From NCBI GenBank assembly GCA_024276425.1, contig JAJRXF010000024.1, positions 1 to 56,077 on the forward strand: a stretch of DNA of 56,077 nucleotides, read 5' to 3'. The position numbers and the translations under genes were made by a program. Source of the stretch: Actinomycetes bacterium (GTDB taxonomy: Bacteria; Actinomycetota; Acidimicrobiia; Acidimicrobiales; SZUA-35). Each line of letters begins with the position of its first letter. Positions within the stretch are counted from its first letter, which is position 1. The notes beneath the pieces were generated by a model. The model saw nothing but the letters and a program-made list of their open reading frames with translations, was not told where the DNA came from and ran no database searches. Positions 32,644 to 47,882 of this stretch are shown one piece after another.

Positions 32644-32681
32644 AGCGGCGGGATCGGAGACAGTAGTCCGATCCCGCCGCT
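32644..32681 (-). terminator. Intrinsic terminator between binding-protein and ATPase genes
   Basis: A perfect 15-bp stem (32644-32658 with 32667-32681) with an 8-nt loop is followed on the minus strand by a run of T (32639-32643). It lies between BMP stop and ATPase start, so it likely gives more binding protein than transporter. Confidence 0.85.
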
Positions 32682-39265: not shown

Positions 39266-39333
39266 CCAGCCCCCTTTCGTTGTCGCGTTAGCGACCCCGA
39301 ACTGGGTCGGACTCGCGACAATGAAAGGGCTGG
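39266..39333 (+). promoter_or_regulatory. Nested inverted repeat in the hydrolase/tdk divergent promoter region
   Basis: Outer arms 39266-39287 and 39314-39333 are complementary except for one mismatch and a 2-nt bulge. They enclose an inner CGACCC/GGGTCG stem at 39292-39309. There is no T-run, so it is more likely an operator or a cruciform than a terminator. Confidence 0.55.
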
Positions 39334-44620: not shown

Positions 44621-45091
44621 CTAGCAAGCACCCGGCGATGATGACTCCAAACAATCCGCACATATCGCGGGGATAGCGAAATGACCGGGGTTGATCTCAA
44701 ACCCCGTGCGTTGTTGAATTTTGCGTTTTGCGTCATCGAGCACCCCGAGATCGGCGTGGGCGACCCGATCACAAGAACTGCAAACGATATGGAGATGGTC
44801 ATGACTGCCAGCGAGGTGGTAAACGGCACTGCCATGACCCAGGTGGACGTGGCTCACTAGACCGGCTTCGGATAACGCGTCCAGGGTTCGATAGATCGTC
44901 GAGCGATGGATCTCGGGGTAGTGGCTGGCCACATTGGCTACCAGATCATCGGCCGTGGGATGAGTGTCCAGAATCAACAAGGCCTCGATAACCGCACGTC
45001 GCGGGGTGGTTAAGCGGTGTCCGGCGTCCCGCAGGCGCTGGAGAAGATCTTGGGTCTGATCAGCAAAGGCCTGGTCGCTCGGCTCGGTCAC
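44621..45091 (-). CDS. Fur-family metalloregulator (Zur-like)
   Basis: The 156-residue repressor has the winged-helix segment RLTTPRRAVIEALL and HRSTIYRTLDALSEAGLV, then the metal domain with HDHLHIVCSSCDRV and ICADC, the two Cys-x2-Cys structural zinc pairs. It is divergent from a zinc/manganese-type ABC transporter and most likely represses it; Zur is favoured over Fur or Mur by this context only. GTG 45091 is preferred because TACTCT lies 7 nt upstream. A TTG 20 codons further up is the other option. Confidence 0.88.
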   Translation of the reverse strand: MTEPSDQAFADQTQDLLQRLRDAGHRLTTPRRAVIEALLILDTHPTADDLVANVASHYPEIHRSTIYRTLDALSEAGLVSHVHLGHGSAVYHLAGSHDHLHIVCSSCDRVAHADLGVLDDAKRKIQQRTGFEINPGHFAIPAICADCLESSSPGAC

Positions 45092-45098
45092 ATCTCGC

Positions 45099-45104
45099 AG
45101 AGTA
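45099..45104 (-). promoter_or_regulatory. -10 hexamer TACTCT of the Fur-family gene
   Basis: TACTCT lies 7 nt before GTG 45091 on the minus strand, consistent with a leaderless message. Confidence 0.4.
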
Positions 45105-45185
45105 GTACACGGCTTCGATTGTCCGTTCGGGTAACTGGGCTCCGGTCTCAATCCTGCCCAGCGGCTCTACTGCGGCCCTTATGCG

Positions 45186-45230
45186 GCTCTTTTGCGCTCC
45201 TGCGACCATGTCGCAGGAGCGCAAAAGAGC
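45186..45230 (+). promoter_or_regulatory. Perfect 45-bp palindrome (21-bp arms, 3-bp centre) upstream of the metal transporter
   Basis: Arms 45186-45206 and 45210-45230 are exact reverse complements around CAT. The palindrome ends 2 bp before the predicted -10 (TATGGT) and covers the -35 zone of the transporter promoter. It is best explained as an operator, probably for the divergent Fur-family protein. The sequence does not look like the usual A/T-rich Zur box, and no T-run follows. Confidence 0.7.
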
Positions 45231-45232
45231 GA

Positions 45233-45238
45233 TATGGT
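45233..45238 (+). promoter_or_regulatory. -10 hexamer TATGGT of the metal-transporter operon
   Basis: TATGGT ends 6 nt before GTG 45245 with no ribosome site, predicting a leaderless mRNA that begins downstream of the palindrome. Confidence 0.45.
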
Positions 45239-45244
45239 TGATGG

Positions 45245-46312
45245 GTGAGGTCGCCACTGTCCCGTACTGCCGGTATTGCCCCTAGGACCCCTACTGCGAC
45301 GGCGCTCGTTCGGGTCAGCCGTCATCATGTGTTGCTGGTACTCGGATTACTCGGCTTGGCAGCCGGATGTGGCACCAAGGCACCGGTCGCGGCCACTGAC
45401 TCAGGCCCAGCCCTTCGGGTTGTAAGCACGGTTTCTCCCATCACCTCCATTGTGGACTCGATTGTGGTCGGCCGTGCGAGCGTGCAAGGCCTTGTACCCG
45501 AGGGGGCAAACTCCCACACCTTTGAGCCACTACCCAGCGCAGCCACCGCCATTGTCAATGCCGACGCAATCTTTGTGAACGGCCTGCAACTCGAAGTGCC
45601 GATCATGCGCCTGGCCGAGGCCAACAAGAAAGAAGCCACCCCCCTGGTTGCGCTGGGCGACTCGGTCCTCGACCCAGAGGACTATCGGTTCGATTTTTCC
45701 TTTCCCCGCTCGGGAGGAAGCCCCAATCCTCACCTGTGGACCGACCCCAGCTTCGTGGTGGCTTACGCCGAAGTAGTGGCCCAAACCATGACCAGTGTCG
45801 ACCCCGATGGGGCGGATATCTACCAGGCCAACCTGGACAAGTTGCGTGCGGCCGCTGAACAACTGGACGTGGCAATGACGGAGTCGTTCGCGACCATCCC
45901 TGCTGATGATCGGGTATTGCTCACCTACCACGACGCCTACGCCTACTTCGCCGACAATTATGGCTTTGAGGTGATCGGCGCCGTCCAGCCTGCCTCCTTT
46001 GGTGATCCCAGCCCTCGAGACGTCGCTGCTCTTATCGAACAGGTTCGACAAACCGGTGTTCCCGCCATCTTTGGATCCGAGGTCTTTCCTTCCCCGGTAC
46101 TGGACCAGATCGCAGTTGAAACCGGCGGGACCTTTGTCGGCTCCCTACGCGATGATGATCTTCCGGGCCTCCCCGGCGAGGAAGAACACACCTGGTTTGG
46201 ACTCCTACGTCTGAATTATGTGGTCATGACTGAAGCCCTCGGTGGTGATGCCTCGGCCCTTTTGGGCCTGCCAGCACTCATCGACCCGGGGACGGCGGAA
46301 TACCCCCAGTGA
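45245..46312 (+). CDS. Metal-binding lipoprotein of zinc/manganese ABC transporter (ZnuA/PsaA family)
   Basis: The signal peptide ends in lipobox LAAGC. Likely metal ligands are the His in ANSHTFEP, the His in NPHLWTDP and the His in TYHDAYAYF, with acidic residues in FGSEVF and SLRDDDLPG. There is no long His-rich loop, and the Glu/Asp pair is also seen in Mn2+-binding relatives, so zinc versus manganese cannot be settled. The start GTG 45245 follows a -10-like hexamer. It is first in a four-gene chain whose stops and starts overlap. Confidence 0.9.
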   Translation: MRSPLSRTAGIAPRTPTATALVRVSRHHVLLVLGLLGLAAGCGTKAPVAATDSGPALRVVSTVSPITSIVDSIVVGRASVQGLVPEGANSHTFEPLPSAATAIVNADAIFVNGLQLEVPIMRLAEANKKEATPLVALGDSVLDPEDYRFDFSFPRSGGSPNPHLWTDPSFVVAYAEVVAQTMTSVDPDGADIYQANLDKLRAAAEQLDVAMTESFATIPADDRVLLTYHDAYAYFADNYGFEVIGAVQPASFGDPSPRDVAALIEQVRQTGVPAIFGSEVFPSPVLDQIAVETGGTFVGSLRDDDLPGLPGEEEHTWFGLLRLNYVVMTEALGGDASALLGLPALIDPGTAEYPQ

Positions 46313-47073
46313 CCGATACTGGGTGGCAGCCGGATCTTCTGCTGGAAGCCAAGCAACTCTGCTGTTCTTATGGCCCCGACGAGGTGCTGACCGAAGTGAA
46401 TCTTGGCATTGCTGTCGGCGACTTTGTTGGCATCGTTGGCCCATCCGGCTCAGGAAAATCAACCTTGCTCCGGGCGCTGAGCGGTTCGTTGGCTCCTAGT
46501 TCTGGGCAAGTGAGCCGCCGCCGGGGTCTTAGCCTGGGCTTTGTTCCCCAAGTCGACCACGTAAACTGGGACTTCCCCGTCACCGTGGCCCAGTGCATCT
46601 TGATGGCCAGCCCACGCTCTGGGCGGCCCTGGACCACAAGGGTAGAACGCCACCGCCTGGCAGAGGTAACCGAACGACTCGGCATCGCCGAGTTAACCAA
46701 TCGGCACATTCGGGCACTGTCCGGTGGGCAACAACAGCGAATGTTCATCGCCCGGGCACTGATGGCCAACGCCAAACTGCTGCTTTTGGATGAGCCAACC
46801 AGCGGGCTAGATGTCCGAACTCGCCACGATGTTCTGCATCTCCTACAAGAACTCAAACAAGACGGTATTTCCGTTGTGCTAACCACCCATGATCTAAACG
46901 GCATTGCAGCACACCTGCCGACGCTGGTTTGTTTGAACCGGCGGGTTGTGGCCTGGGGGCCGACCCAAGATGTCCTGACTCCCCAAGTTCTCGAGGAGAC
47001 CTATTGTTCTCCAATGGAGGTTCTTCAACACGCGGGTTTCCCGGTGGTGGTGGACAGGCCGATAGCTCGATGA
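46309..47073 (+). CDS. Metal ABC transporter ATPase (ZnuC-like)
   Basis: The 254-residue ATPase has Walker A GPSGSGKSTLL, Q-loop VPQVDHVNW, signature LSGGQQQR, Walker B LLLLDEPTSGLD and the switch His in TTHDLNG. It drives import of the metal delivered by the lipoprotein. Its GTG start overlaps the preceding stop by 4 bp, and its stop overlaps the permease ATG. Confidence 0.93.
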   Translation: MTDTGWQPDLLLEAKQLCCSYGPDEVLTEVNLGIAVGDFVGIVGPSGSGKSTLLRALSGSLAPSSGQVSRRRGLSLGFVPQVDHVNWDFPVTVAQCILMASPRSGRPWTTRVERHRLAEVTERLGIAELTNRHIRALSGGQQQRMFIARALMANAKLLLLDEPTSGLDVRTRHDVLHLLQELKQDGISVVLTTHDLNGIAAHLPTLVCLNRRVVAWGPTQDVLTPQVLEETYCSPMEVLQHAGFPVVVDRPIAR

Positions 47074-47882
47074 GCCAGTTGCTTGATCCCTACAGCTTCC
47101 AGTTTTTCCAGAACGGGCTTGTCGTGGCCACGGTGGCTGGTGCCCTCTGCGGTTTTATTGGCTGTTATGTCGTTCTGAGGTCGATGAGTTCGATCGGCCA
47201 CGGCCTGTCCCACGCCATTTTTGGGGGCTTTGCTGCTTCGTCCTTGATCGGCATCAACGTCTATATAGGAGCCGGAGCTTGGGGGATAATGGCCGCAGTG
47301 ACGATCGCCATCATTACCCGCCGCCGACCGGTTGGATCCGATGCGGCCATCGGGGTGGTAACAACGGCCTCCTTTGCCCTTGGACTAGTTCTGGTCCAGG
47401 GCTGGGGCTCGTCCAACATCAACGCTGAAGCAGTACTTTTCGGTAACGTCCTAGGAGTGTCACGGGCTGATGTGGCCATGGTCCTTGGTGTGACGGCGTT
47501 GACCCTAGTTTCGGTATTCGCCTTCTATCGACAACTGCTCTTTGTAACCTTCGACCCTGAAGTTGCCCAAGTCTCGGGCCTTCCGGTCGCCTGGTTGGAC
47601 GCGCTGCTTATGGTTCTTTTAGGGGCCGCCATTTTGGTGACCATGAACATTCTTGGCGTCACCCTCATCGCCGCCGCCCTGGTTATCCCCGCCGTCGTAG
47701 CTCGCCTTCTAACTGCCAGCTTCCCCACCATGTTGATGATGGCTGGTGCAGTGGGAGCGATCATGGGATTTGTTGGCATGAACGTTAGTTATCACCTGGA
47801 CCTAGCCTCGGGACCCGTCATTGTGTTGGCCGGGGCAGCGATGTTTGTCGGAGCCTACGGTTGGGGCAGACTGACCGGGTGA
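47070..47882 (+). CDS. Metal ABC transporter permease (ZnuB-like, ABC-3 family)
   Basis: The 270-residue permease has about eight helices and family motifs FIGCYVVLRSMSSIGHGLSH and MNILGVTLIAAALVIPAVVA. The ATG at 47070 overlaps the ATPase stop; a longer open frame upstream lies inside the ATPase gene and is not real. It completes the lipoprotein-ATPase-permease set. Its stop overlaps the start of a thioesterase-like gene. Confidence 0.92.
   Translation: MSQLLDPYSFQFFQNGLVVATVAGALCGFIGCYVVLRSMSSIGHGLSHAIFGGFAASSLIGINVYIGAGAWGIMAAVTIAIITRRRPVGSDAAIGVVTTASFALGLVLVQGWGSSNINAEAVLFGNVLGVSRADVAMVLGVTALTLVSVFAFYRQLLFVTFDPEVAQVSGLPVAWLDALLMVLLGAAILVTMNILGVTLIAAALVIPAVVARLLTASFPTMLMMAGAVGAIMGFVGMNVSYHLDLASGPVIVLAGAAMFVGAYGWGRLTG

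Follow-up and report, generated by a model that had tools for sequence, protein, structure and literature searches.

The closest described counterpart of the locus reported here is the Nur box of Streptomyces, which an excerpt of PMC3919588 gives as tTGCaa-N5-ttGCAA. The corresponding regulator of Streptomyces coelicolor has a solved structure, 3eyy, according to an excerpt of PMC7055735. Hairpins formed by template switching, which may bear on the outer part of our element, are described in an excerpt of PMC8794818.

We analysed a stretch of 56,077 nucleotides from an Acidimicrobiales genome, called the window below, in which a perfect palindrome separates a divergent Fur-family gene from a ZnuA/ABC-3 operon. 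The features of the locus are the following.

45186..45230, no strand: palindrome of 45 bp, perfect, with CAT between its 21-bp arms; occurs once in the assembly
45186..45200, no strand: left outer arm, 15 bp, lineage-specific, 15/15 outer pairs
45200..45216, no strand: putative core operator, a Nur-type box CTGCGA-CCATG-TCGCAG (CTGCGACCATGTCGCAG), from the published Nur box and conservation in relatives
45216..45230, no strand: right outer arm, 15 bp, lineage-specific, in the promoter spacer
45233..45238, plus strand: candidate -10 element TATGGT, at a distance of 25 bp from the centre of the operator (in relatives mostly at +26/27 or +9/10)
45245..46312, plus strand: gene for a ZnuA-family metal-binding protein, with a leaderless-type GTG start 6 nt beyond the -10
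46309..47073, plus strand: ABC transporter ATPase of the operon
47070..47882, plus strand: ABC-3 family permease (probable ATG start 47070; mechanical ORF from 46929)
44621..45091, minus strand: divergent Fur-family regulator, Nur-like (probable GTG start 45091; mechanical ORF from 45151)

Results

The palindrome and its copy number

The palindrome is real. Its two 21-nt arms, at 45186-45206 and 45210-45230, are 100% complementary across the 3-nt gap CAT, exactly as a sequence-only reading of this DNA had described them. When the window was searched with the 21-nt half-site at <=3 mismatches, these two arms alone were found (shuffles expect 0.00), and BLAST of 181 bp around the palindrome against the 3.95-Mb assembly returned the self-match only. 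The outer 15-mer (<=3 mismatches) occurred 40 times on the forward strand compared with 37 for its reversed control, which shows that the arm is not repeated. The earlier reading had suggested scanning the genome for the half-site and had named a scattered repeat as one outcome that would speak against it; the exact sequence proved not to be repeated.

Perfect palindromes with 21-bp arms and a gap of <=8 numbered two in 848,077 sampled bases, the window included, and the second is a member of a repeat family. The inner 6-7 bp of each arm are accounted for by the conserved operator box described below, and by our own estimate (~0.26 to the power 15) the remaining 15 arm pairs did not arise by chance. 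An assembly artefact is unlikely, as the palindrome lies mid-contig with normal flanks, and a viral source was dropped when the exact half-site was found in 0 IMG/VR stretches.

Other inverted repeats were seen in the course of this work. Another perfect 45-bp palindrome with 21-bp arms and a 3-nt gap, unrelated in sequence, occurs in an Acidimicrobiales genome (locus L111, 5676-5720), with a shorter inverted repeat within each arm. The window itself has a perfect 15-bp inverted repeat with an 8-nt loop at 32644-32681 (AGCGGCGGGATCGGA...TCCGATCCCGCCGCT).

A Nur-like regulator beside the transporter operon

The protein encoded by the divergent gene matched PF01475 (2.4e-25). Among solved structures, 3eyy was its best match (2.2e-33), compared with 1.2e-19 for PerR (2fe3) and 6.8e-12 for FurB/Zur (2o03); it is nearer to Nur than to Zur. 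Seven His and four structural Cys all align and are kept in the window's regulator. We take these seven His, in assignment and numbering, to be the two metal sites of Nur. By alignment, the divergent regulator would be of the Nur type with both metal sites.

In loci L050, L052, L053, L055, L059, L060 and others, a Fur-family gene lies instead downstream of the operon, ~2.5 kb from znuA. In the proteins that it encodes, H33 and several of the positions H86-H90, in the numbering that we assume, are replaced, and these loci keep the same box upstream. The downstream protein is possibly a regulator for another metal.

A conserved Nur-type box at the palindrome centre

Of the 12 half-site positions of TTGCGA-N5-TCGCAA, the window box departs from 2, the outermost base on either side, and it resembles the half-sites TTGCRA and TYGCAA at the 5-bp spacing that defines a Nur box. 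Since the pairing is perfect, its two half-sites are not independent evidence. We compared the region with related loci, 80 of them from a GTDB scan (the best 80 of 299 relatives) and 24 of 30 from an order-wide search (L140-L163); the other six were genomes already included or the window, and 22 further matching genomes had no locus and were left out. Upstream of the related ZnuA genes we found the motif TTGCGA/TTGCAA-N5-TCGCAA/TTGCAA, which has the spacing and the place of the palindrome centre. With <=2 mismatches, and with A/G or C/T allowed at one position per half, the box was present upstream of related transporter genes in 79 of 102 regions, a count in which genomes shared by both collections enter twice. 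The same search found it in 0 of 101 stretches within znuA, in 2 of 98 taken downstream and in 55 of 2,040 shuffles (2.7%). With the window counted, a box was found in 80 of 105 loci and was missing from 25 at this threshold; identical sites from the two collections were merged, leaving 67 distinct ones for the counts of layout and pairing given below. The conservation of the box and the family of the regulator are thus computational results.

These results indicate, with a probability of about three in four, that the palindrome centre is the operator of the divergent Nur-like repressor. That the site belongs to the divergent Fur-family protein had been proposed from the sequence, and the match of the centre to the Nur box and the conserved motif upstream of related operons argue for it. 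The earlier comparison of the whole 45-bp palindrome with Fur and Zur boxes needs correcting, since what would be recognised is a box of normal length, 15-17 bp, and of the Nur type rather than the Fur/Zur type. As an operator alone, this box is ordinary. It is presumably not the AT-rich actinobacterial Zur box.

A wider regulon for the box is not supported. The assembly contains TGCGA-N5-TCGCA without mismatch 2 times, as often as the reversed pattern used as control (2), and the place other than the palindrome is inside a mechanical open frame. A looser pattern with 2 mismatches gave 138 places compared with 114 in the control, and none of five 1-mismatch places checked for gene context was beside an evident metal gene.

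In seven of 66 sites (loci L058, L064, L081, L089, L092, L102 and L151) a further half-site, GDTYGC, lies beside the -10, at +18 relative to the middle of the box. This is possibly a second contact of the regulator.

Promoter layout of the transporter operon

In the window, TATGGT (45233-45238) is followed by six bases and then by the GTG at 45245. A sigma-70 consensus scan of 45050-45350 found no promoter-like site, and the promoter therefore rests on comparison with relatives. Of the 67 distinct sites, counting that of the window, 55 show a TANNNT followed 3-12 nt later by an ATG or GTG in frame, and in 46 of these 55 leaderless-type sites the -10 and the start are 6 or 7 nt apart. Measured from the box centre, the -10 is at +26/27 in 28 of the 67 and at +9/10 in 23. 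Ten TANNNT fall between +14 and +17, and +25 is seen in the window but in 0 of 66 others, which, like the negative sigma-70 scan, speaks against the operator reading. When the adjacent regulator is >=45% identical to that of the window, the -10 is at +26/27 in 5 of 6 sites, close to the +25 of the window.

The leaderless layout is conserved among relatives and the window fits it, which places the palindrome probably outside the transporter mRNA, working as DNA over the -35 region. Leaderless transcription from 45245 would leave the end of the palindrome 14 bp short of the first base of the mRNA. It would cover the -35 region because its centre is 25 bp before the -10 candidate. An untranscribed element overlapping the -35 region of a metal-transporter operon is what the sequence-only reading had proposed for an mRNA starting at the GTG, and the comparison with relatives speaks for both points.

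We infer binding by the regulator, its metal and repression as follows. A metal-bound Nur-like dimer would sit on TGCGACCATGTCGCA, over the -35 region of the leaderless promoter, and would keep RNA polymerase off the znuA-type operon. By homology to Nur of S. coelicolor the metal would be Ni2+, with Zn2+ or Mn2+ as alternatives. The regulator would probably control its own gene too, which we only infer, since no minus-strand TANNNT for that gene was found within 6-45 bp.

Lineage-specific outer arms

Contiguous pairing outward from +-3 extends over 20 pairs in the window and over <=8 at the 66 other sites. The outer pairs number 15 of 15 in the window, compared with a maximum of 10 and a mean of 4.8 at 65 other scorable sites. 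The outer arms are private to this lineage, and none was found in the relatives examined. They are what is unusual about the element, and the perfect extension is probably recent. No relative close enough to polarise the arms was found in the family (39 genomes) or in 397 genomes of the order, and the GTDB scan, which covers the best 80 of 299 relatives and so may miss genomes that are very near, gave no closer one; the ZnuA segments are 50-64% identical.

Nothing seen in the function of the operator needs 15 further perfect pairs, and we therefore favour a mutational origin of the arms. The simplest is fold-back (template-switch) copying, to which we would give roughly even odds. The 6-bp, 3-nt-loop hairpin of the operator would have primed the nascent strand to copy onto itself, so that the perfect extension arose in one event. 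Copying that produced the right arm would imply an ancestral -10 at +10, where it is often found, whereas copying that produced the left arm would have moved nothing.

An argument from a 15-bp insertion was also tried: without the right outer arm, the -10 falls at +10, as in many relatives. It is weakened because 5 of the 6 relatives with the closest regulators have +26/27 without long arms. Such an insertion is compatible with the data and not decisive.

A palindromic repeat family in the genus

From the 848,077-base census and pattern searches we identified a dispersed palindromic repeat in the genus, with the 52-bp consensus GTTCGTTGTCGCGTTTGCGACCC-N6-GGGTCGCAAACGCGACAANGAAC. A covariance model of this family, built from 8 copies with the window palindrome excluded, gave 70 matches to the genome at E <= 10, both strands, among the 150 of 705 candidates that were scored. 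From 37 places we used 33 sites, leaving out two short matches with E >1, the copy C174:71 (which duplicates the site C58:20 at the ends of contigs) and one of a pair of identical neighbours on C7. A simple open-frame caller placed 28 of the 33 outside open frames, with every orientation of the genes represented. The centre GACCC-N5-7-GGGTC is present in 25 of them and GACC...GGTC in 30. The sister genome gave 48 matches at E <= 0.01 on both strands, and the other 39 genomes gave 0 to 4. Sister-genome copies have different arms and mostly the same centre, and the arms differ between subfamilies yet stay largely palindromic. A transposase of the Y1_Tnp type (PF01797, RAYT-type) was found in 0 of 1 genome (assembly 96.1% complete), compared with 5 of 14 control genomes. 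One family copy lies in the window at 39275-39326, and further copies are L218-L249 (genome G000) and L262-L279 (genome G001).

The palindrome might be a divergent member of this family, with a shortened centre that was selected as a Nur box or replaced by one, and we consider this unlikely. The model, which was built without it, scores the palindrome at 38.3 bits, compared with 12.2 for a palindrome of equal geometry (21-bp arms, 3-nt gap) from another organism, although much of that score presumably comes from the inner TGCGAC. Both share this TGCGAC and have an equal distance of 15 nt to the GYTC end; family members also make up 5 of the 10 other strong palindromes in the 848 kb, and the family is abundant in both genus genomes searched. 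Membership would count against the operator reading, in that the inner TGCGAC would then be repeat-derived.

However, the centre of the window palindrome is GAC-CAT-GTC, in which GACCC-N5-7-GGGTC is missing and the spacing is the N5 of the operator. The likeness of the outer arms is weak as well (P 0.02-0.10): a PWM of 31 members matched the outer 15 bases with P 0.02 against 895,524 random 15-mers, with P 0.05 among 345 15-mers adjoining TGCGAC (family copies and window included), and with 0.10 against shuffles. The genome-wide model search, with its 150 of 705 candidates scored, omitted the palindrome, and a conserved operator would have to have been lost at this place and then re-supplied. 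Because the family centre is missing and the outer-arm likeness is weak, the palindrome was not filed as a family member. That a genus repeat, its inner TGCGAC being identical to the Nur half-site from the outset, was domesticated as the operator of the Nur-like sensor, losing 7 bp at its centre, gaining the N5 spacing and maintaining perfect arms as repeats do, seems to us rather improbable. The objection that the palindrome belongs to a repeat family fails for the exact sequence, but a genus family that shares its inner TGCGAC does exist, and a distant link is possible.

Two dimers or an RNA element

The sequence-only reading had offered a site for two dimers, that is, an extended operator with inner TGCGAC/GTCGCA and outer TTGCGC/GCGCAA half-sites. 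The outer TTGCGC/GCGCAA match the box half-site at 5 of 6 positions, and one extra half-site is present in the 7 of 66 other sites described above, but at +18. Half-sites at the outer offsets of the window (within 1 bp) recur in 0 of 66 other sites, which leaves two-dimer binding without comparative support. Furthermore, the outer pair is spaced unlike the box, and selection on half-sites would not require all 15 pairs to be perfect. We regard two dimers as quite doubtful.

An RNA element, either a leader hairpin hiding the ribosome site or a terminator, is extremely improbable: the strong fold (131 nt at -62.5 kcal/mol, z -5.1, equalled by 1 of 200 shuffles) is trivial because any palindrome folds by construction, the leaderless layout is conserved by comparison, no T-run follows the stem, a terminator scan gave one small stem at 45170-45186 and not the palindrome, and no Rfam family was matched at gathering score, the six hits (E up to 1) being microRNA hairpin models far below it. 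The RNA switch allowed for in the earlier reading falls away, as no leader is expected.

Discussion

The interpretation that had been made from the sequence is partly supported. The single-box operator of a Nur-like repressor is the reading that we prefer for the palindrome centre, and it would give a ZnuA-type operon that many actinobacteria possess both an operator and a regulator of the Nur type, so that the metal becomes directly testable. Among the titles and abstract openings surveyed, none describes a Nur box in front of such an operon. The extended palindrome is a candidate for a natural case in which a single mutational step lengthened an operator, or in which a repeat became one.

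Compared with known systems, the locus is related in different respects to several. With template-switch hairpins, as an excerpt of PMC8794818 describes them, it shares the perfect reverse-complement extension, a hairpin stem made in one event; the window case differs in that it would be deduced from one genome and no ancestor. The repeat family of the genus is like REP and REPIN elements in being palindromic, dispersed and mostly intergenic, whereas the window palindrome does not have the family centre and no Y1 (RAYT-type) transposase was found in the genome. With Zur boxes and znuABC operons it shares a divergent Fur-family gene beside a ZnuA-type ABC operon, but its regulator is much closer to Nur (3eyy 2.2e-33, compared with 6.8e-12 for FurB/Zur 2o03).

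The Nur box of S. coelicolor (sodF, nikABCDE; PDB 3EYY) is alike in the pattern TTGCRA-N5-TYGCAA, in being the site of the closest solved regulator and in the aligned His. The window box differs from it in standing on a ZnuA/ABC-3 transporter rather than on nik or sod genes and in arms extended to a perfect 45-bp palindrome. Collectively, the element appears to be of a known kind, a Nur-type operator, here on a ZnuA-type operon and with an unusual perfect extension.
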